Positions 52,714-64,000 of a stretch of 64,000 nt of DNA are shown here, piece after piece. Made by a program: the position numbers and the translations under genes. Under the pieces are notes generated by a model. That model was not told the DNA's origin and made no database searches. It was given only the letters and a program-made list of their open reading frames with translations. The stretch is taken from contig JANSXE010000004.1 in the NCBI GenBank assembly GCA_024743195.1, forward strand, positions 310,001 through 374,000. The letters are read 5' to 3'. Every line of letters begins with the position of its first letter. Positions within the stretch are counted from its first letter, which is position 1. The stretch comes from Alphaproteobacteria bacterium (GTDB taxonomy: Bacteria > Pseudomonadota > Alphaproteobacteria > UBA8366 > Aestuariispiraceae).

Positions 52714-53073
52714 AGGCGCGGTGTCTCCCTGTCAGTCGCCGATCGGTCCCTTCATGTAGCGAAGCGCCGCGGCGCGAACCATAGGCCGCGCCGCGCGCCC
52801 ACGCACTTGTGATCGGCGGCGGGCCCATGCTAACAGGCTTTCCGCGGCCGCGTCCCGGCCGCGATGACCTTGGGCCGGGCCAGCCGTTCTGATGAGTGAC
52901 CGCCGCTCCGACATCCCCCCCGACGGGCGCCCCGACCGGCGCCCCGACCGGCGACGCCGACGCGCGCGACGATGCGGCGCCGCCGCGTTCGCTTCCTGCG
53001 GGCGCCGCGTGCGCCCTCGCGGCCTTGTCGCCGGCGGGGACTTGTCGGGCGTGCGGCTCCATCCGGGGCCGGA
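52714..53073. other. Interval without a supported gene
   Basis: This 360-bp stretch separates the minus-strand ynj operon from the GNAT gene. It has high GC, a 12-bp repeat GGCGCCCCGACC twice (near 52925-52948) and several overlapping short open frames. One (52892-53077) ends in an ATGA overlap with a possible GNAT start, but its product is Arg-rich and of no recognisable kind. I see no promoter or RNA element that I can support. Confidence 0.4.
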
Positions 53074-53124
53074 ATGAGCGACAGAGAGGACCCGCCGGCT
53101 TCCCCCGGAACGGAGTCCTCCTTC

Positions 53125-53661
53125 ATGCCCCACGACCTTCCGCCGATCGATTTCGAGATCGCGCCTGAAACCCCCGACGACGCCCCGGCCGTCGACGCCC
53201 TGATCGCCCGGAGCTTCGGCCCCGACCGCACCAGGCGCACCGTCTATCGCTTCCGCGACGGCCGCGCGCCGATCGCGGCGCTCGCCTTCGTCGCCCGGGC
53301 GCGCGGCGGCGCCGGCGGGCCGGACGCGGCCGGCCGGCTGCTCGGCTCCCTCAATTTCTGGGAGGTCGAGGCGCCGGGCGGGCGGCTGCCGCTGCTCGGG
53401 CCGCTGGCGGTTCTGCCCAGCCTGCGCGGGCGCGGGGTCGGGCGCGCGCTGGTCGCGCACGGGCTCGCCGCGGCGCGCCGGCTCGGCTGGCCGGCGGTGC
53501 TGATCGTCGGCGACCCGGGCTACTACGCGCCGCACGGCTTCACGGTGGAGTGCGTGGCGGGGCTTGAACTTCCGGGGCCGGTCGGCCCGCTGACCTTCAT
53601 GGGGTTGGAGTTCGCGCCGGGCGCGCTCTCGACCCGCTGCGGCCCGGTGCGGCCGGTCTGA
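53125..53661 (+). CDS. GNAT family N-acetyltransferase
   Basis: 178 residues. The acetyl-CoA site is visible in LAVLPSLRGRGVGRALVAHG, and the family end in VLIVGDPGYYAPHGFTV and GLEFAPGAL, close to the YhbS-type GNATs. Target is unknown. The ATG at 53125 is used; an in-frame ATG at 53074 would add a Ser/Pro-rich stretch. It ends 111 bp before the tRNA gene. Confidence 0.85.
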   Translation: MPHDLPPIDFEIAPETPDDAPAVDALIARSFGPDRTRRTVYRFRDGRAPIAALAFVARARGGAGGPDAAGRLLGSLNFWEVEAPGGRLPLLGPLAVLPSLRGRGVGRALVAHGLAAARRLGWPAVLIVGDPGYYAPHGFTVECVAGLELPGPVGPLTFMGLEFAPGALSTRCGPVRPV

Positions 53662-53772: not shown

Positions 53773-53846
53773 GCGGGTGTAGCTCAATGGTAGAGCAGCA
53801 GCTTCCCAAGCTGACGACGAGGGTTCGATTCCCTTCACCCGCTCCA
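53773..53846 (+). tRNA. tRNA-Gly(CCC)
   Basis: A 74-base tRNA with CCA encoded. The acceptor stem GCGGGTG pairs with CACCCGC; the D arm (AGCTCAATGGTAGAGCA) and T arm (GAGGGTTCGATTCCCTT) are standard. The anticodon loop is TTCCCAA, giving anticodon CCC for GGG codons; the first anticodon-stem pair is a mismatch. The 3' end is a typical integration site, and the DNA that follows changes in character. Confidence 0.95.
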
Positions 53847-54122: not shown

Positions 54123-56615
54123 ATGTACGCAGTGATTGATCGAACCGTCTCAATTCATTGGGAAATCGCCGCCAAAATCAATTTCGCCTGTCAGCAGAGC
54201 TCATATCCGGTTCTCCGCGATCTTCGGATCGAAAACCTGGATGAGGATGACCGCCTCGAAGGATTGCTCGTCACGCTGACGGCTGATCCGGCTTTCTTGA
54301 AGCCGCGCAGTTGGCGAGTCGATCGGATCGCGCCGGGCGGCATCGTGCCGATCAAGGAGCGGACGCTCGACCTGGAGGGCGGCTTTCTTCTGGGCCTGAC
54401 GGAGGCTGTACGCGGCTCGGTCACGCTGACCATCGAGCGCGACGGCGAGATTCTGGCGGAGGAGAGCAAGCCGGTAGACGTGCTGGCTTACAATGAGTGG
54501 GGCGGCTCCGGCTACATGCCGGAACTGCTGGCGGCCTTCTGCACGCCGAACGATCCGGCCGTCGACCGTATCCTTCACAAGGCCGCCATGGCGCTGCGGA
54601 AGGCGGGTCGTGAGGACACGCTGGACGGCTACCAGTCCGGCAGCCGAAAGCGGGTTTGGGAGATGGCGTCGGCGATCTACACCGCGATCGCCAATCTAGG
54701 CGTCGCCTACGCCGTCCCGCCCACCAGCTTTGAGCGGGACGGCCAGAAGATCCGGCTGCCCAGTCAGATCCTCGACGGCGGCGTGGCGACATGCCTCGAC
54801 ACCACGATGCTGTTCGCCGCCGCGTTGGAAAAGGCGGGCCTGAACCCGATCGTTGCGATGCCGGAAGGCCATGCGATGGTCGGCGTCTGGTTGCAGCCGG
54901 AAGAACTCTCCTCCGTCGTCGTCGAGGACGCGGAGACGCTGCGCAAGCGCTATGAGCTCAAGGAACTGACGCTCATTGAGACGACGTTGGTGACGTCGCA
55001 CGCCGCGCCGCCTTTTTCGCGCGCCATCGAACGGGCGATGGACAATCTCTCGCCTGACAAGGATGCGACCTTCAGCGCGGCGGTCGACATCCGCCGGGCG
55101 CGGGCTCATCAGATAAAGCCGCTCGCCCTGAAGGCGGGCCTTGGCGGAGAGGCCGCGATCGGGGAGGAGCCGGCGGTCGAGATCTCAATGGAAGAGGCGC
55201 CGCCGCTGCCGGACTTTGACTCGGAAGTCGAGGAGGCCCTTCCCGACACGCCCGAGGGACGTTTGGAGCGCTGGCAGCGCAAGCTCTTGGATCTGTCCGC
55301 GCGGAATCCGTTGCTGAACCACAAATCCTCCAAGGCCAGTCTGCCGCTCATGTGCCCCGATCCGGGCGACTTGGAGGATCGCCTGGCCGCCGGCGCGAAG
55401 ATATCCATCCAGCCCGTCCCGCAGCCCACAAGCCAGGGGCAGGACGACGAACTGCACCGTCGGCGCACCGGCCAAGTGATCACGCGCGAATATGCGCTGG
55501 ACGCGTTGGGCAAGAACCAGGTGCTGGTCGATCTGCTGGAACAGGAGCTTTCCAAGCGCGCTGTTGAGATTTATCGCAAGGCGCAAACCTCGCTACAGGA
55601 AGGCGGCGCGAACACGCTCTACCTCGCGCTCGGCTTCCTCGCCTGGAAGCGCGACAAGGATGACGAGCGTCGCTTCCGTGCCCCCTTGATCCTGTTGCCC
55701 GTCACGCTGCAACGGCAATCCGTACGAAGCGGCGTGAAGATGCTGGCCCATGACGACGAGCCGCGCTTCAACACGACCCTCCTCGAAATGCTGCGCAAGG
55801 ATTTCGAGATCGAGATCAAGGGGCTCGACGGGGATCTGCCGAAGGATGACAGCGGCGTCGACGTCCGACTGATATGGGAGAAGGTTCGCCGCGCGGTCGT
55901 CGACGCGCCGGGCTTCGAAGTGGTCGAAGACGTCGTGCTCAGCCATTTCTCATTCGCGAAGTATCTTATGTGGAAGGATCTGGTCGATCGGACCGACGAC
56001 TTGCGACGGAACGCGATCGTCCGCCATCTGATCGACACGCCCCGTCAGGCCTATGAGAGCTCTGTTGAGTTCGTGTCTGCCGAGCGGCTGGATCGGGATT
56101 TCGCGCCGTCCGATCTGCTCGCCCCGCTGCCCGCCGATTCATCACAAATGGCGGCCATCGCAACCGCGGACCGGGGTAAGGACTTCATCATCATCGGCCC
56201 GCCCGGCACCGGCAAAAGCCAGACCATCAGCAATATGATCGCCCACCTTTTGGGGAAGGGCAAAACGGTCCTCTTCGTCTCTGAGAAGACGGCGGCGCTG
56301 AACGTCGTTCATCGACGTCTCGCCGATATCGGTCTCGGGCGGTTTTGCCTGGAGCTTCATTCCAACAAGGCCAAGAAGACGGAGGTGCTGGCGCAGCTCG
56401 CCAAGGCCTGGTCCGCCGGCGCGCAGAAAAGCGAGGAGGAGTGGCGGCGCGAGGCCGAGAAGCTGAAGACGGTTCGCGACCGCCTGAACCGCGTCGTCGA
56501 CTATATGCATACCAAGCGCCGCAACGGCCTGACGCCGCATCAAGCCATTGGCGTGCGGGTGAGGGACCAAGAACTGGCCGATCGATTGGCCTTCACGTGG
56601 CCGCAGGCGGACTAG
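54123..56615 (+). CDS. DUF4011/SF1 helicase protein, N-terminal part before an amber codon
   Basis: 830 residues, ending at an in-frame TAG (56613-56615). Order: Ig-like start (1-130); transglutaminase-like domain (about 130-290) with Cys224 and His250; DUF4011 from about 380 (RWQRKLLDLSARNPLLN); helicase with Walker A GPPGTGKSQT (692-701) and FVSEKTAALNVV. The ATG has AGGGAGAG five bases before it; a TTG at 54072 is weaker. The same reading frame resumes directly after the stop, so this and the next entry are one gene of about 2009 codons. The full architecture matches large DUF4011-helicase-Vsr-DUF3320 proteins known from defence islands (called Hhe, from memory). Confidence 0.85.
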   Translation: MYAVIDRTVSIHWEIAAKINFACQQSSYPVLRDLRIENLDEDDRLEGLLVTLTADPAFLKPRSWRVDRIAPGGIVPIKERTLDLEGGFLLGLTEAVRGSVTLTIERDGEILAEESKPVDVLAYNEWGGSGYMPELLAAFCTPNDPAVDRILHKAAMALRKAGREDTLDGYQSGSRKRVWEMASAIYTAIANLGVAYAVPPTSFERDGQKIRLPSQILDGGVATCLDTTMLFAAALEKAGLNPIVAMPEGHAMVGVWLQPEELSSVVVEDAETLRKRYELKELTLIETTLVTSHAAPPFSRAIERAMDNLSPDKDATFSAAVDIRRARAHQIKPLALKAGLGGEAAIGEEPAVEISMEEAPPLPDFDSEVEEALPDTPEGRLERWQRKLLDLSARNPLLNHKSSKASLPLMCPDPGDLEDRLAAGAKISIQPVPQPTSQGQDDELHRRRTGQVITREYALDALGKNQVLVDLLEQELSKRAVEIYRKAQTSLQEGGANTLYLALGFLAWKRDKDDERRFRAPLILLPVTLQRQSVRSGVKMLAHDDEPRFNTTLLEMLRKDFEIEIKGLDGDLPKDDSGVDVRLIWEKVRRAVVDAPGFEVVEDVVLSHFSFAKYLMWKDLVDRTDDLRRNAIVRHLIDTPRQAYESSVEFVSAERLDRDFAPSDLLAPLPADSSQMAAIATADRGKDFIIIGPPGTGKSQTISNMIAHLLGKGKTVLFVSEKTAALNVVHRRLADIGLGRFCLELHSNKAKKTEVLAQLAKAWSAGAQKSEEEWRREAEKLKTVRDRLNRVVDYMHTKRRNGLTPHQAIGVRVRDQELADRLAFTWPQAD

Positions 56616-59600
56616 CACGACGCCGACCAACTGCAGCGGATGCCTGAGGCCGCGGAGTTGCTGCAGGTCCAGGCGAAGGCGGTCGGCGACATCCACGACA
56701 GTCCGTTCCAACTCGTCTCCAGCGCCGACTGGTCACCGCAATGGGAGGCGGAGCTGACCGAGCGCGCCGGCGCGCTCGCCGAGGCGGCGGCCGCAGCCGA
56801 CAAGGCTGCAACCACGCTTGTTGAGGCGCTTAGGATTGCGCCGCCCGACCGCAGCATGGCGCGCATGGAGGCTATTGCGGAACTGGCGGAGGTGCTCATC
56901 GCCTCTTATCGGAAGCAAAGCGGGTTCGCGCTGGAGCCGGACGGCGTCGATCGGATTGAGGCGCTAGAGGAGGCGGTGGCTCGTGTTAAGGCCTACGCCG
57001 CGGCGCAGGCGGATTTGAGCGCGCCTTACGACCCGATGGCGTGGCGCGCTTTGGACGGCGCGGAGATCGGCCGGCTGTGGGCGGAGGCCGAGGGCGCTTG
57101 GTGGCCGAAAAGTTTCTTCGCCAAGCGCGCCGTCATCAAGAAGATGCGTCTCGGCGGCGCCAAAGGGACGCCGAATCCGGCGCGCGACGCGGGTCTGCTG
57201 ACCACGCTTCGACAGGAAGGGGAGGCGATCGACCGCCTGGATAAGCTGCTCTCCGGCTTCCGGGATTGGTCGGCGCACACGACCGATCCTGAGGCTGCGC
57301 AGACGTTGCGCGATCTGGGCGACCGTGCGCGCGCCGCGGTCGGCCGCCTCGTCGACGAGCCCGACCGACTGGTGGAGACGCGCGGTCGGATCCGCACCCT
57401 ACTGCAGGACGGCAACGACATGCTGGCGCCGGATGCGCCGATTGGCCGCGCGGCGGCGGACTATCTGTCGGCGTTGGAGCGACTTCGCGAGACGTCCAAC
57501 TCGTTCCGGGATCGCGCGGGGCGCGAACTGCGGGAGGCGGTCGGCGACAAGGACCAAGCGCTGCCAATCCTGAAGGAGACGTTGGAAGAACTCGTCGCCA
57601 GAAAGACTGAGCTCAATCAGTGGTGCGCCTGGCGGCGCCGTCGGACGGAGGCGATCGACCTGGAACTGCAGCCGCTCGTCGACTCGATCGAACAGGGACG
57701 CACGCCGGTCGAGGAGATCCCGGAAACCTTCGAGGCCGCCTATTGCGCCTGGTGGTCGAGCCGGCTCTTCGAGGAGGACGACATCCTGAAGGGTTGGTCG
57801 ACCGCCGAACATAGCGATGCGATCGAGAAATTCAGGGCGATCGACGAGACCTTCCAGAAGGTGACGGCCGAATACATCGCAGCAAAGCTGAGCGGACGAA
57901 TGCCTGGTCAGACGCAGATCGGCCGCAACCAGCAGTGGGGCTTGATCAAGAAGCTGACCGCGCAGAAGCGTCCGCGCACGCCGATCCGGAAGATGATCGA
58001 GGACGCGCCGGAGCCGATCTCCAAGCTTGCGCCGTGCCTGATGATGTCGCCGCTGTCGGTGGCGCAGTATCTGCCGTCCGATCAAAGCCCGTTCGATGTG
58101 GTCATTTTCGACGAGGCGTCGCAGCTGACCGTGTGGGATGCGGTCGGCGCGATCGCGCGAGGCGGGCAGGCGATCGTCGCCGGCGACCCGAAGCAGATGC
58201 CGCCGACGAACTTCTTCAGCCGCGCGGACGACGATCCGGACGGCGACGTCGATTATGAAGGCGACATGGAAAGCATCCTCGATGAGTTGCAGAGCGCCAG
58301 CATTCCGGAGCAGACGCTGAACCTGCACTATCGATCCCGCCGGGAAAGCCTCATCGCCTTCTCCAACCATCATTACTACGACAATCGATTGGTGACGTTC
58401 CCGGCGCCGGTCCATCCGGATTGCGGCGTCAGGCTGGTCCGTTGCGACGGCTACTACGCCCGCGGAAAGGCGCGCCACAATGAGGGGGAGGCGCGCGCCA
58501 TCGTCGCCGAGATCGTCCGCCGCCTCACCTCGGCCGAGCCGGCGGAGCGCGAGGCGTCGATCGGCGTCGTCACCTTCAACTCGGAGCAGCAGTCGCTGAT
58601 CCTTGACCTTCTGGACAAGGCGCGCGGCGCCAATCCGGATATCGAATGGGCTTTCGCGGAGGACGCGACGGAGCCGGTCTTCGTGAAGAACCTGGAGACG
58701 GTCCAAGGGGACGAGCGGGACGTCATCCTTTTCAGCATCACCTACGGCCCGGATCAGGCAGGCCATGTGACGATGAACTTCGGGCCGTTGAACCGCGACG
58801 GCGGCGAGCGACGCCTGAATGTCGCGATGACCAGAGCGCGCTCTGAGATGGTGGTCTTCTCAACCCTTCATCCGGACAAGATAGACATCTCCCGCACCAA
58901 GGCCGAGGCGGTGAAGCACCTCAAGCACTTCCTCGAGTATGCGGAGCGAGGACCGAGCGCACTGGGGGCGGGCATTCACGGGTCGATGGGCGATTTTGAA
59001 TCGCCATTCGAGACGGCGGTCGCCCGCGCCTTGCGCGACAAGGGCTGGACGGTCAGGCCGCAGATCGGCGTCAGCGCATTCCGGATCGATCTGGGCGTCG
59101 TGCATCCGGACGAGCCGGGGGTCTATCTCGCCGGCGTCGAATGCGACGGCGCGATGTATCACAGCTCCGCCTACGCTCGGGAACGTGATAAGATCCGCCA
59201 AGCGGTGCTGGACGGGCTGGGGTGGACGCTCTTCCGCGTCTGGTCGACCGATTGGTGGATCAACCGGCAGCGCGCCCTTCAGGCCCTCGACGCACAGCTG
59301 CGGGCTCATCTCGAAGCGGATCGCATCAAACGGAAGGAAGCGGCTGAAGCGCAAGCGGACAACGAGACAGAAGCGACCGATGATAGAGCGTCCGAAACCG
59401 CTGATGACGCGTCGCCGGAGGCGGAAGACGACGAAGACGCGGCGCCGCTTCGCGTCGGTCGAGCCGTTCGGGCGGACGAGCAGACAGACGCAACTGAATC
59501 TGGCGCGTCCGAGCTCGAAGATGAGGAGCGGGCATATGAGGAGGAGCCTGAGGTCGAAGATGACGCACCGCGCGTCTATGACGGTCTGCGACCGATCGAG

Positions 59601-60152
59601 ACGCCGCGGCCGTCCGGCCTGGCTGACGATCAAAGCACCTTCTCCTTCAGTGCGGACGGCGCACCGGACAACGCGCGCTACGTTAACGCCTCATTTGACA
59701 AGGGCGCGCTCGCCCCGGACCCGAACAAGTTCTACGATGAGGCCTACGACCGCCGCCTCATCGCAATGATCGATCATGTGATCGACACCGAGGGGCCGAT
59801 CCACGAAGATGTGCTCGTGCGCCGCATCGCCCGCCATCATGGCTTCAAACGCGCCGGACGCCTGATCCGCGACCGCGTCTTAAAGCTCGCCTGCAAGCGC
59901 CGGGGAAACACGAAGGAAGAGGTCGGCCGGTTCTTTTGGCGCAAGGGAACGGTGAAGGACCGCCTCGCCCCGGCGCGCTACAAGGGCAGGGACGATGAGG
60001 TGCGGAGCATCGAGCGCATCTGCACCGAAGAACTCCGCGCCGTCAGCGCGGCAGTGCAGTCGTCAGATCCCGGAACGGTCGCGCTGGCACTCGGCATAGC
60101 TCGTCTGAGTGCACTCGCCCGGGCACGTCTACAGAAAGCAATGGGTCAGTAG
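56616..60152 (+). CDS. DUF4011/SF1 helicase protein, C-terminal part after the amber codon
   Basis: The frame continues from the TAG for 1178 codons; the first ATG is at 56640 and has no visible ribosome binding site. Numbered on the joined protein: coiled, charged region (840-1280); Walker B DEASQ at 1330-1334 with GDPKQMPPT; helicase motifs HYRSRRESLIAFSN, GDERDVILFSITYG and LNVAMTRAR; Vsr/MTES_1575-like nuclease (about 1625-1720: FESPFETAVARAL, VECDGAMYHSS with Glu1673 and Asp1675, FRVWSTDWW); an acidic linker; DUF3320 (about 1870-2009). If the amber is real, the helicase and nuclease are separated from the DUF4011 half, and activity is doubtful unless the stop is read through. Confidence 0.82.
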   Translation, partial: HDADQLQRMPEAAELLQVQAKAVGDIHDSPFQLVSSADWSPQWEAELTERAGALAEAAAAADKAATTLVEALRIAPPDRSMARMEAIAELAEVLIASYRKQSGFALEPDGVDRIEALEEAVARVKAYAAAQADLSAPYDPMAWRALDGAEIGRLWAEAEGAWWPKSFFAKRAVIKKMRLGGAKGTPNPARDAGLLTTLRQEGEAIDRLDKLLSGFRDWSAHTTDPEAAQTLRDLGDRARAAVGRLVDEPDRLVETRGRIRTLLQDGNDMLAPDAPIGRAAADYLSALERLRETSNSFRDRAGRELREAVGDKDQALPILKETLEELVARKTELNQWCAWRRRRTEAIDLELQPLVDSIEQGRTPVEEIPETFEAAYCAWWSSRLFEEDDILKGWSTAEHSDAIEKFRAIDETFQKVTAEYIAAKLSGRMPGQTQIGRNQQWGLIKKLTAQKRPRTPIRKMIEDAPEPISKLAPCLMMSPLSVAQYLPSDQSPFDVVIFDEASQLTVWDAVGAIARGGQAIVAGDPKQMPPTNFFSRADDDPDGDVDYEGDMESILDELQSASIPEQTLNLHYRSRRESLIAFSNHHYYDNRLVTFPAPVHPDCGVRLVRCDGYYARGKARHNEGEARAIVAEIVRRLTSAEPAEREASIGVVTFNSEQQSLILDLLDKARGANPDIEWAFAEDATEPVFVKNLETVQGDERDVILFSITYGPDQAGHVTMNFGPLNRDGGERRLNVAMTRARSEMVVFSTLHPDKIDISRTKAEAVKHLKHFLEYAERGPSALGAGIHGSMGDFESPFETAVARALRDKGWTVRPQIGVSAFRIDLGVVHPDEPGVYLAGVECDGAMYHSSAYARERDKIRQAVLDGLGWTLFRVWSTDWWINRQRALQALDAQLRAHLEADRIKRKEAAEAQADNETEATDDRASETADDASPEAEDDEDAAPLRVGRAVRADEQTDATESGASELEDEERAYEEEPEVEDDAPRVYDGLRPIETPRPSGLADDQSTFSFSADGAPDNARYVNASFDKGALAPDPNKFYDEAYDRRLIAMIDHVIDTEGPIHEDVLVRRIARHHGFKRAGRLIRDRVLKLACKRRGNTKEEVGRFFWRKGTVKDRLAPARYKGRDDEVRSIERICTEELRAVSAAVQSSDPGTVALALGIARLSALARARLQKAMGQ

Positions 60153-60291
60153 CGGCCTCGTAATCGCTCTCTCCTCGCGGCCTATTGGCTTGTGGCTACC
60201 TTACCCAGGCTTAACGATTCAATCCGATCTCGCTCGGCATGCGCACGAGCGAGCCCCATACCCGCCTTGACGGCTTCGGCCTCTACGGTCG

Positions 60292-60660
60292 GTTCGAGAT
60301 CCTTCGGACCGAGTCCGAGGGGGAGAGAGGGGCGAGTCCGACGAGGCGGTCGCGCCGGTGTACGTCAAATCCCTCGACGCGCCGCGTATGGGCGTTCCGC
60401 TCGAGGAGGTCGTACGTGTCGGCTATGGCGAGAAAGAGGTGGTTGCGCTGCACGGCCGCCGGACGGTCACGGTCACCCTACGGTATCCGCGTTTTCGTCG
60501 CCCCGGCGTCCGGCGAGACGCGAAGACGCGGGTTCCCGGGGTCCATCCTCACCGCAAGGTCACCCGGGACCTCTACGAATCCGTCCTAATCGGCATGGCG
60601 AGTGGGCGGCAGACGGCGCGGCGCGTCGCCGACCTCTCGCAAGTCTCGGCGGCTACGCGG
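60292..60660 (+). pseudogene. Decayed transposase-like fragment
   Basis: Within the 607-bp gap after the helicase gene one frame reads VTVTLRYPRFRRPGVRRDAK followed by TRVPGVHPHRKVTRDLYESV and GRQTARRVADLSQVS. This recalls the N-terminus of ISL3-type transposases (zinc finger, then helix-turn-helix); the two expected cysteines of the finger are replaced by Arg and Val, each by a small change. There is no start codon with a ribosome binding site and the frame dies within the next gene's antisense strand. No terminal inverted repeats seen. Tentative. Confidence 0.35.
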
Positions 60661-60759
60661 CGTCAGCGGGTATCGCAGGGTCCGAAACCCCGGATAATCA
60701 GCGGTTGTCTCGACTTGACGCCTTCACACGCCGCGCAGCCCTCTCAGTCCGGGACATTC

Positions 60760-63700
60760 CTAAAACCCGTGGTGCTGCGGATCGTCCTGAATGGCCGCCT
60801 CGACGGGGTCCGTTTCGGCCCCATCCAGCGCCGCGTCATCGACCCTTCCATCCGTATCGGTCAGGGCGTCATCGGCCGACGCGTCCCCTCGGTTGTAGAG
60901 TTGCGGATCGTCAGACGGACCGCTGGCGTCTGATGACCCTGCGCCTGGTGCGGCGTCGGACGGATCGATCCCCGCGACCTCGAGATAGACGGTCACCGCC
61001 GAGTCGCCCTGGCCGTCCTCACCTGCTTCGTCGGATCCGGACGGATTTTGCGATCCAGGAGCGGCGAACTGCATGTAGTCCGTGACCGAAGAAGATGTCG
61101 GCGGTGCGGAGGGCGGCGCAGCCTGCGAACCTGCCTCGTCGGAGCCCGTCACCTCGATATCGACGGTATGCGTCGTGCCGTCGGCTGACTTGACGGTGAA
61201 ACTTTCCGTGGCGTTTGTTCCGTCCGCCAAGGCGTCGGCGCGATCGTCCGGCGCGTAGGTCCATTGTCCCTGGTCGTCGATGCTGAAGGTTCCGTATTGT
61301 CCGTCGGTATCGGTCTGTGCGACGAAATGGGCGTCGGCCGCGTCGCTGTCGGAAACGGACAAGGAACCGCTAACGGACGTGTCGTCGTCCGCTGTCGCCG
61401 CGCTGTCGTCGCCGGCGATCGCGGCGTCCGGGAACGGCTGCCCCGGCTGGAGTTCGACGCGCAGGGCGGCGCCGCTCCATGGCGAGGCGCTGTCCCCGTC
61501 GACGCTTCTGCTTTGGACCGAGAAGGCGTAGTTCTCGGTCTGTCCGGCGGGCGGGGCGATCTCGATGGAGTCGAGACGCCAGCCCGTTACGTCCAACGGA
61601 TGGTCTGCGTCGATCGCGCCGGTATGCGTTCCATCGCTGACGACGGCGCCGTCCGGCAGGCCGACGATGCGCGTTTCCACCTGCTCCGATCCGTCCTGGT
61701 CATTGCCGGCGGCGGAGATGTCGAGTTCGAAGCTGTCTCCGGGGGTCACATGGCGGACCGTGTGCAGGTCCACCACGTTCACCCGAACGGTCGCCGTCGT
61801 CTCGTTCACCCCGTCCGTAATCGTATAGGTGAAGCTGTCCGCGCCGGAGAAACCGGGCGGCGGTTCGTATCGAAACGAGCCGTCTCCATTGCTCGCCACG
61901 CGTCCGCCATGGGCGGAGGCGGCGTCGAACGCGCTGAGCGAGAGCGCAGCGCCTTCATGATCGACAGCCTGATCCAGCACATTGGGAATGCCGAGCGCCC
62001 CGTCGGACACGTCCATACGCGCATCGACGTCCGGCGCCGCGGGGGCCCAGTCGCTGGGCTGCATCGCAAGTTGGAAGTCGGTTTGGCCGCCGTCCGAAAC
62101 CACGCCGAAGCGGCCGCCATTCAAAGGCGTTCCGAAATCGTGCGACGCCTTGAGCTCTCCGCCGGACCAAAGCTCCGCCACCGATCCATGCACGCGCAGT
62201 TCGACCTGATGATCGGCGTCGGGCGTGGCCATCGTCGCGTCCGAAACCCGCTCCAACTCCACCAATTGGCCGTTTCGATACTCCTCGATATTCCATCCGC
62301 CCTGCCCAGCGCGCAGAACGGCCATCTTGAAGTTGTCTTCATCCTGGTAGTCGAAAACGATGCCGCCCGTCTTGTTCATGCCGCCGTTCGTGTGCGCGTG
62401 AACCGTGGCGGCGAGGGTGTAGTCGGCCTGGAGGGCGCCGGCGTAGTCCGCCAGCGCCACCTGCTTAGACGCGCCGCCGGCGACCGAAAGGCTGGTCCCC
62501 TCCACCGTCCACGCGCCATGAACGGGTTCGATGGCGTGCGGCGTGCCGTCGAAAACCGCGCTGTCGAAGCGCAGTTCGGCGATGTTCGAGAAGTGGACGG
62601 TCGCGCTTCCGCCGCCGTCCAAGGTGACCGTCGCGACGCCTGTCGCCGTGTCGATGGCGACCTGATCGGCGCGGTAAGCGGACAGATCCAGCGTGTTTCG
62701 TCCCGCCCCGCCGTCGATCGTGTAGCTGTCGCCGTCCTGCAGGGTCGAGACGCGGAACGTATCGTCGGCCCCGCCGCCGGTTGCGCTGGTGACGGCGTAG
62801 CGTCCAGGCCGCAGCCCCTGTCCGGGCGACTGATAGTCCTGCGTCGTCAGATCGAAATGAACGGCCGCAGAGGCGGCGGAGAAATCGGCGCGGCCGTAGA
62901 CGACGCCGCCCGCGGAAGCCCCGACCTGCAGTGAGGGTCGGTCAGCCGTCGGCGCGATGTCCAGGACGCCCTGGGCCGTCACATCCGCTGCACCATCGCT
63001 GACGGTCAGGGTGACCGCGACATCGTCGCCGCTGAAGTCGCGGGCAGGCGTAAAGACCCACGACCCGTCCGGTTGTTGCGCGAAACTGCCCTGGGCGCTG
63101 GTCGCCGCCGTGATGTGCAGCGTATCGCCCGCATCGGCGTCGCTCGCCCCGACAAGCCGCAGCAGGTCGGCCTCGCTGAAGGTTATCGGCGTATCCTCAT
63201 CCGTGGCGCCGAGAGAGGCCGGAGCAGCCGATGTGGCGGTTACGACTGGCGCGTCGTTCGCCCCGGTGAGCGTGATCACCAAATCGTGCGTCACCTGGGC
63301 GCCGGCCCCGTCGGTCACCGTGATGGGAATGGTGATCGGATGCGACGCCCCCGCGGCCAGCCCCTGGTAGGCGGCGTCGGATGGATCGAAGCTGTAGCCG
63401 CCGTCCGGATCGAGTGCGAACCCGGGAACCGGAGCGGTCGTCGTATAGGTCAGCGTCTCGCCTGAATCCGGATCGGCGCCCGCAATGCTTCCGGTGAAGG
63501 AGGCGGCGTCCTCCGTCGTCGAAACCGAGGCGGCGTTCGCCGTCGGCGCATCATTGCTCCCCGTCACGGCGATCGTGACCCGATGCGTCGTGCCGTCGGC
63601 CGACGATACGGTGAAGCTCTCGCTCGCCGACGCGCCGTCGGCCAAGGCGTCGGCCCGGTCGTCGGGCGCGTAGCTCCAGGCCCCCTGTGCGTCGATGCTG

Positions 63701-64000
63701 AACTTCCCGTATAGCCCGGCGGTTTCGGTTTGCGCCAAAAAATGCGCTTGCGAGCCGTCGGCGTCGGCGATCGTGAGCACGCCGGAGACGGCCGCATCGT
63801 CGTCCGGGGTCGTCGCATCGTCGTCGCCGGCGATCGTCGCGTCTGGTATCGGCTGCGTCGGGTCGAGGACGACCGGTGCGTGGTCGAGCGCCGTTTCGGT
63901 CGTCCCGTCTGGGCCTTCTGTGGTGACGGAGTAAGCAATGTTCATGTTGCCGTGAAAGGACACGGGCGGCGTGGCTTGAAGCGATGCGAGAGTCCAGCCC
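60760..64000 (-). CDS. Large VCBS/cadherin-like repeat surface protein, 3' part
   Basis: At least 1079 residues; the frame is open through the right edge, so the start lies outside (a GTG at 63963 is internal). Order from the N-terminal side: a start like WTLASLQATPP; a VCBS repeat (AHFLAQTETAGLYGKFSI, YAPDDRADALADG); cadherin/Ig-like repeats joined by GSNDAP and GANDAP; a lectin/LamG-like domain (about 62090-62480: GGIVFDYQDEDNFKMAVL); another cadherin-like repeat; a second VCBS repeat nearly the same as the first; and an acidic Ser/Ala/Asp tail. No RTX nonapeptides or transmembrane anchor are visible. It is probably a secreted adhesin; a type I secretion signal is possible but unproved. It is convergent with the helicase gene. 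Confidence 0.85.
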   Translation of the reverse strand, partial: GWTLASLQATPPVSFHGNMNIAYSVTTEGPDGTTETALDHAPVVLDPTQPIPDATIAGDDDATTPDDDAAVSGVLTIADADGSQAHFLAQTETAGLYGKFSIDAQGAWSYAPDDRADALADGASASESFTVSSADGTTHRVTIAVTGSNDAPTANAASVSTTEDAASFTGSIAGADPDSGETLTYTTTAPVPGFALDPDGGYSFDPSDAAYQGLAAGASHPITIPITVTDGAGAQVTHDLVITLTGANDAPVVTATSAAPASLGATDEDTPITFSEADLLRLVGASDADAGDTLHITAATSAQGSFAQQPDGSWVFTPARDFSGDDVAVTLTVSDGAADVTAQGVLDIAPTADRPSLQVGASAGGVVYGRADFSAASAAVHFDLTTQDYQSPGQGLRPGRYAVTSATGGGADDTFRVSTLQDGDSYTIDGGAGRNTLDLSAYRADQVAIDTATGVATVTLDGGGSATVHFSNIAELRFDSAVFDGTPHAIEPVHGAWTVEGTSLSVAGGASKQVALADYAGALQADYTLAATVHAHTNGGMNKTGGIVFDYQDEDNFKMAVLRAGQGGWNIEEYRNGQLVELERVSDATMATPDADHQVELRVHGSVAELWSGGELKASHDFGTPLNGGRFGVVSDGGQTDFQLAMQPSDWAPAAPDVDARMDVSDGALGIPNVLDQAVDHEGAALSLSAFDAASAHGGRVASNGDGSFRYEPPPGFSGADSFTYTITDGVNETTATVRVNVVDLHTVRHVTPGDSFELDISAAGNDQDGSEQVETRIVGLPDGAVVSDGTHTGAIDADHPLDVTGWRLDSIEIAPPAGQTENYAFSVQSRSVDGDSASPWSGAALRVELQPGQPFPDAAIAGDDSAATADDDTSVSGSLSVSDSDAADAHFVAQTDTDGQYGTFSIDDQGQWTYAPDDRADALADGTNATESFTVKSADGTTHTVDIEVTGSDEAGSQAAPPSAPPTSSSVTDYMQFAAPGSQNPSGSDEAGEDGQGDSAVTVYLEVAGIDPSDAAPGAGSSDASGPSDDPQLYNRGDASADDALTDTDGRVDDAALDGAETDPVEAAIQDDPQHHGF
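61160..61420. repeat. VCBS repeat, C-terminal copy
   Basis: DNA coding for the second VCBS repeat of the surface protein. It matches 63560-63830 over most of its length, including the block that encodes YAPDDRADALADG, with scattered differences. Recombination between the two copies would delete about 2.4 kb in frame. Confidence 0.75.
63560..63830. repeat. VCBS repeat, N-terminal copy
   Basis: DNA coding for the first VCBS repeat visible in the window, counterpart of 61160-61420. Further copies may lie beyond the right edge. Confidence 0.75.

Follow-up and report, generated by a model that had tools for sequence, protein, structure and literature searches.

A ProA-family anti-phage gene cut by a single in-frame TAG in an Aestuariispiraceae genome: a probable recent nonsense allele

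Giant proteins of the MTES_1575 type are described in PMC3710099 as combining a transglutaminase, a superfamily 1 (SF1) helicase, a Vsr nuclease and a winged helix-turn-helix domain with an additional HEPN domain. Two named families of anti-phage proteins are also relevant here, namely Hhe, the DUF4011 domain anti-phage protein (NCBIfam NF042953; also a PADLOC model), and ProA (NCBIfam NF058533). A stretch of 64,000 nucleotides (nt) from an alphaproteobacterium of the Aestuariispiraceae (contig JANSXE010000004.1, positions 310,001 to 374,000; hereafter the window) contains on its forward strand, at 54123-60152, a single 2009-codon frame whose translation has one internal stop, TAG at codon 831 (56613-56615). 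Judging from its sequence, the gene derives from full-length ProA, in which a very large SF1 helicase of the Upf1-like kind is joined to a nuclease of the Vsr type.

Pfam places DUF4011 and the Walker A part of the SF1 helicase before the stop; behind it come the other helicase parts, the Vsr-type nuclease MTES_1575 and DUF3320. The domain order proposed in a preliminary description of this locus stands for these parts, whereas the transglutaminase-like part at its head has a weak, sub-threshold Pfam match of 14.5 bits (cut-off 23), obtained only with a 163-residue piece as the query. Intact catalytic sites had been suggested on either side of the stop, and the helicase and nuclease motifs GPPGTGKS, FDEASQ, NVAMTRAR, FRID and VECDG were indeed all located, on both sides of it; GPPGTGKS is taken here to be Walker A, and the helicase motif labels and the catalytic status of all these motifs are likewise assumed. 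With the MTES_1575-type proteins, as far as PMC3710099 presents them, the window protein shares a high-significance MTES_1575 nuclease and DUF3320 with the helicase ahead of them, while the HEPN domain is found in theirs and the window protein has no HEPN Pfam match and a transglutaminase match below threshold.

The two halves fall on adjoining parts of NF058533, with 1034.6 bits over model positions 1-807 and 1149.3 bits over 810-1881, and as encoded neither reaches the family cut-off of 1500 bits. With the stop read through, the protein scores 2209.2 bits over positions 1-1881 of 1903, above the cut-off and with near-full coverage of the model like the uninterrupted relatives L008 (2167 bits) and L010 (2190 bits), from which it differs in that its frame is cut by TAG. 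The proposed architecture of a single-gene anti-phage system agrees with NCBIfam, which names the family as one anti-phage protein, although a family name is no test of function. Going by the names alone, ProA might be the 'Prometheus' system of DefenseFinder. PADLOC names the family PDC-S37, and the halves cover positions 8-439 and 458-1526 of the 1550 of that model in a library without a cut-off. No paper describing ProA was found among those listed in literature searches, and a literature search on PDC-S37 found none. Membership in Hhe was rejected, because the helicase and nuclease parts match both Hhe models but the protein, even when read through, reaches 828.9 bits against the NF042953 cut-off of 2000.

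The nearest homologue, L008, aligns over the whole length at 81% identity with no gap at the position of the stop. As a single profile carries on from the first half into the second and L008 aligns ungapped across the break, the split frame is more than chance, and the view of one gene cut by a single TAG holds. The start at 54123 carries a Shine-Dalgarno-like AGGGAG 7 nt upstream and matches the start of L008 in the alignment. Downstream of the TAG, the codons HDADQLQR are seen in the translation as previously noted, followed by an ATG at 56640, 24 nt past the stop. No Shine-Dalgarno sequence was found for this ATG, the best being a 3-of-6 match with poor spacing, in line with the earlier statement that it lacks a ribosome binding site; this absence alone does not exclude reinitiation 24 nt after the stop. 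A promoter and terminator scan returned nothing above shuffles.

Whether homologues carry a sense codon at this place, or end and restart here as two genes, was answered by 35 related loci taken from genome contigs, 33 of which cover column 831. A sense codon and no gene boundary occur in all 33. Among 31 uninterrupted homologues (at least 1700 residues), 11 residue types occupy the column (A 9, T 5, Q 3, I 3, Y 2, V 2, L 2, M 2, H 1, F 1, S 1), and the His immediately after it is invariant in 19 aligned homologues, but not in rows L189, L191 and L192, which align loosely around this column. With 11 residue types followed by a conserved His, the stop therefore falls on a tolerant position beside a conserved one.

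Comparison with L008 gave a ratio of nonsynonymous to synonymous divergence (dN/dS) of ~0.055 (0.103/1.89) before the stop and ~0.093 (0.131/1.40) after it. Changes assigned to the two branches amount to 46 nonsynonymous and 56 synonymous for the window against 64 and 62 for L008, and therefore point to no relaxation on the window branch. Both sides look constrained, with no sign of a long freedom from constraint. A recent nonsense allele is expected to show a sense codon in relatives together with selection that has not yet relaxed, and both were found here. The locus is probably a ProA-family anti-phage system, encoded by one gene and gained by horizontal transfer, which was inserted just downstream of a tRNA-Gly and has suffered a recent nonsense mutation at codon 831. 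Several points weigh against this explanation. The dS values are near saturation, branch assignment succeeded at few sites, the stop is judged young from the absence of decay alone in one strain of the species, the assembly sequence by itself cannot separate a base error from a mutation, breakage of other copies was counted without a control gene family, and a UUA-anticodon tRNA in the genome might suppress the stop. The resulting ranking is a young nonsense allele, then a base error, then read-through and finally a split enzyme.

In the intact protein, the Upf1-like SF1 helicase probably moves along or senses invading nucleic acid and the Vsr-type nuclease probably cuts it, as we infer from the families to which they belong. 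The stop parts Walker A and motif Ia from motif II, the motifs after it and the nuclease. What is made upstream still has Walker A and a motif Ia-like stretch, but has lost motif II, the later motifs and the nuclease. Severed in this way, the product of 830 residues is expected to be inactive in both ATP hydrolysis and DNA cleavage, and with ordinary decoding the system would presumably be off; cost as the reason for this, raised in the preliminary description, is at most a possibility. A structure model of L008 residues 640-1640 has a mean predicted local distance difference test score (pLDDT) of 79.6 and a predicted template modelling score (pTM) of 0.48, so that domain placement is uncertain. 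The modelled core is SF1B-like, its best structural matches being Ighmbp2, senataxin, Dna2 and Upf1, and the sequence matches agree. Template modelling scores (TM-scores) are at most 0.36 among the matches listed, under either normalisation, and such low values are expected because of a very large insert. The model places residue 831 in a loop, with blocks of pLDDT 90 and 93, of this long helical insert, which is situated between Walker A (692-699) and motif II (~1329).

The surroundings of the gene are consistent with horizontal acquisition. In G001, a genome of the same genus, other genes follow the shared acetyltransferase and a tRNA-Gly(CCC), and the N-terminal part of the ProA gene finds no match, which shows the left edge of the insertion, with the tRNA-Gly as the probable insertion point of the island. 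The sequence 3' of the gene has no match in the stretches from five relatives, and the contig ends ~7.5 kb further. In G011, apparently the genome of L008, the gene lies 2 kb past a tRNA-Ser. Any match to the N-terminal part occurs in 6 of 59 genomes including the own one, and strong matches over nearly the whole length in three (own, G011 and G054). Relatives were detected in 321 of 72,556 plasmid records (E <=1e-50), all below 60% identity and only four covering at least 80% of the query, and in 1 of 50,697 phage records (E <=1e-30). All this fits a mobile defence gene.

Some further observations concern the same surroundings. A tRNA-Ser called by ARAGORN at 53531-53624 was rejected as likely false, being located inside the acetyltransferase frame 52972-53661, absent from the 45 Rfam tRNA hits and poorly alignable with the tRNA-Ser genes of the genome. 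Low-confidence frames at 60239-60933 in the window, which separate the defence gene from the gene that follows, are possibly remnants of the far end of the island. On the reverse strand, 60760-63963 of the window encodes part of a very large repeat protein that looks VCBS/cadherin-like by eye and continues to ~67638 in the contig, nearly to the contig end. The record of L008, CP051228.1, is labelled as a metagenome-assembled genome of Mesoflavibacter sp., yet apparently represents the G011 locus, which is placed in the window's own family, and the name looks wrong.

Table 1. Features of the interrupted ProA-family gene and its left flank (window coordinates).
Feature	Position	Strand	Basis
tRNA-Gly(CCC)	53773..53846	+	RF00005 and ARAGORN; probable insertion point of the gene-bearing island
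N-terminal open frame	54123..56615	+	830 codons and TAG; DUF4011, Walker A, motif Ia-like stretch; NCBIfam ProA 1-807
DUF4011 domain	55281..55793	+	Pfam PF13195, E 5.8e-52
Walker A, GPPGTGKS	56196..56219	+	motif search in translation
In-frame TAG, codon 831	56613..56615	+	sense codon in 33/33 related loci covering the column
Remainder of gene, same frame	56616..60152	+	1178 codons and TAG; first ATG 56640; helicase motifs II onward, nuclease, DUF3320; ProA 810-1881
Helicase motifs FDEASQ, GDPKQMPPT, LHYRSR, VQGDERD, NVAMTRAR	58107..58841	+	motif search; Pfam AAA_11, AAA_12
Vsr-type PD-(D/E)xK nuclease (REase_MTES_1575)	59007..59300	+	Pfam PF18741, E 9.7e-35; FRID, VECDG present
DUF3320, winged-helix-like region	59727..59873	+	Pfam PF11784, E 2.4e-20

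The first alternative, an unlikely one, is an error of sequencing or assembly, in which case codon 831 would be a sense codon in the true genome and ProA would be functional there. A single base is involved, the remainder of the gene is without decay, and the evidence comes from one strain and a draft assembly of 31 contigs. On the other side stands a sample of 504 kb of the same assembly (~12% of the genome; 327 open reading frames of at least 200 residues, picked by composition), where no other TAG or TAA splitting a gene likewise was seen; at each of the six other TAG or TAA sites flagged, a start codon follows within 1-4 codons, in a search that did not use homology and whose thresholds miss short pieces. 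Isolated substitution errors are moreover uncommon in polished assemblies, which may hold for this assembly too, and we infer that the TAG base is real.

Read-through of the TAG at some level, by a serine-type UUA tRNA through U34-G wobble or by near-cognate misreading, would provide some full-length ProA with a residue inserted at the stop and is considered less likely still. The anticodon was read for all 45 Rfam tRNA hits of the genome, giving no CUA and one UUA. The gene of the latter, at G000:C15:522472-522568 (L112:73-169, outside the window), encodes a serine-type class-II tRNA scoring 58.2 bits (cut-off 29), with the 7-nt anticodon loop CUUUAAA, intact acceptor and T stems and 76% identity to the tRNA-Ser(TGA) of the genome. 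ARAGORN gives it a four-base anticodon, but a loop of seven bases follows from both the Rfam alignment and the fold, and ARAGORN itself reads TTA in the similar tRNAs of L239, L245 and L253. A tRNA with a UUA anticodon would read UAA and, via U34 wobble, UAG, and ochre suppressors read amber too. Read-through would also suit the tolerance of column 831 for many residues, Ser being found in one homologue, and the constraint that holds on either side of the stop.

Against it, the conservation expected of a recoded or read-through stop was found in 0 of the 33 homologous loci, and the UUA tRNA gene has no encoded CCA, unlike nine real Ser/Leu tRNAs compared, and a variable arm longer than in those nine. 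The genome G076, whose homologue is also broken by TAG, has 42 tRNA hits, none with a stop anticodon. TAG ends 79 and TAA 39 of the 327 sampled frames, and with 118 frames ended in this way both are ordinary terminators, which together with the lack of another interrupted gene in the 504 kb argues against read-through and against genome-wide recoding, which was rejected. Serine-type tRNAs with non-serine anticodons, an ochre one included, have been described as allo-tRNAs, and one allo-tRNA pseudogene is reported to overlap a transposon-related frame (PMC7609411). The UUA tRNA resembles them in being serine-type with a non-serine anticodon, but as far as that source presents them their acceptor/T geometry is 8/4 or 9/3, in contrast to the canonical 7/5 seen by inspection here. 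Among the papers listed in literature searches, none described natural ochre suppressors or mobile suppressor tRNAs.

The UUA tRNA has as neighbours an IS1-like transposase, a 261-residue frame and a PemK-like toxin gene. A pattern made from this tRNA occurred in 2 of 385 genomes of the class (own and G365). The neighbouring transposase was found in 25 of 289 class genomes, and this search led to a third tRNA case, G268. The widened pattern occurred in 3 of 385 class genomes (own, G365 and G268) and its reversed control in 0, but the pattern had been widened after G268 was seen, so the third case is no independent evidence for it. In all three (own; G365, L247; G268, L393), 1073-1105 nt separate the tRNA from an IS1-like transposase, and the tRNA is divergent from the intervening frame of 261-266 residues. 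Such a tRNA is missing from most copies of the transposase. By ARAGORN, a TTA-type tRNA lies near the transposase in 2 of 28 bacterial loci (own and G268, with an ambiguous call in one more, L273; Rfam on 20 of the 28 agrees) and in 0 of 75 viral loci (Rfam on 17 agrees), these counts being lower bounds since ARAGORN misses some such tRNAs. Eight viral contigs contain the pattern of the own tRNA, four of them with a serine-type tRNA by eye (L237, cut at its 3' end; L239; L240; L243), and three of these four (L237, L240 and L243) have transposase remnants next to them; L240 and L243 share an identical stretch of ~520 nt and are counted once. Taken together, this resembles a mobile element with a possible nonsense-suppressor tRNA on board, and a functional link between the UUA tRNA and the TAG of ProA might exist as a candidate only. 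There is a slim chance that ProA is under mobile-suppressor control, the element-borne serine-type UUA tRNA decoding the amber codon so that full-length ProA would appear, in small amounts, only where a cell has the element. If true, a travelling nonsense-suppressor tRNA would be keeping an immune gene alive at low dose.

Other loci were noted alongside. The viral contigs L238, L241, L242 and L244 have TTA-anticodon tRNAs which are leucine-type by eye with the same anticodon-arm pattern. ARAGORN reports a tRNA with an ambiguous four-base anticodon (ttac) at L273:892-967 (G058), near another transposase copy. Near the UUA-tRNA element, G000:C15:512594-518999 holds an Eco57I/MmeI-type methylase gene next to a large frame and may be a second defence island.

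The slimmest chance of all is left to two real polypeptides forming an active split enzyme, the second made by reinitiation at the ATG, which is within the reach of terminating ribosomes and follows a break in a modelled loop of an insert, but none of the 33 related loci is built as two genes here, the ATG has no Shine-Dalgarno sequence and the break runs through the first RecA domain.

A recent nonsense mutation finds parallels elsewhere in the family. In-frame stops were flagged in 12 of 56 matching genomes (397 searched) and in 4 of 28 (385 searched), and 15 genes besides that of the window were compared with uninterrupted homologues. Eight of them (G688, G659, G746, G545, G709, G666, G478 and G585) are open over the whole homologous length, and two (G236 and G267) have their stop at one and the same Trp, close to where the nuclease ends, with only 18 and 37 aligned residues after it; these stops were taken as natural ends. 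Frame changes were found in three (G500, G606 and G624) and clear mid-gene nonsense codons in two, G076 (TAG) and G158 (TAA). With ten natural ends, three frame changes and two nonsense codons among the 15, a recoded or hot-spot stop in the family was dropped. Further frame changes occur in G621, G725 and G300, which were examined for matches in pieces, and in L014, there away from column 831. Small mutations thus appear to break ProA family members from time to time, with no rate or excess claimed for a family viewed without a control family. No paper describing broken defence systems was found among those listed in a literature search.

In the favoured reading of a young nonsense allele, a large single-gene defence system has been caught soon after its loss. 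For defence inventories, this means that domain-scoring tools would include in their counts a system that is probably not functional. A mobile tRNA able to read stops would make nonsense alleles conditional genome-wide, and the ProA amber codon would then be a natural reporter. Neither the gene nor the way in which it is broken is unusual, and the UUA tRNA beside a transposase may matter more.

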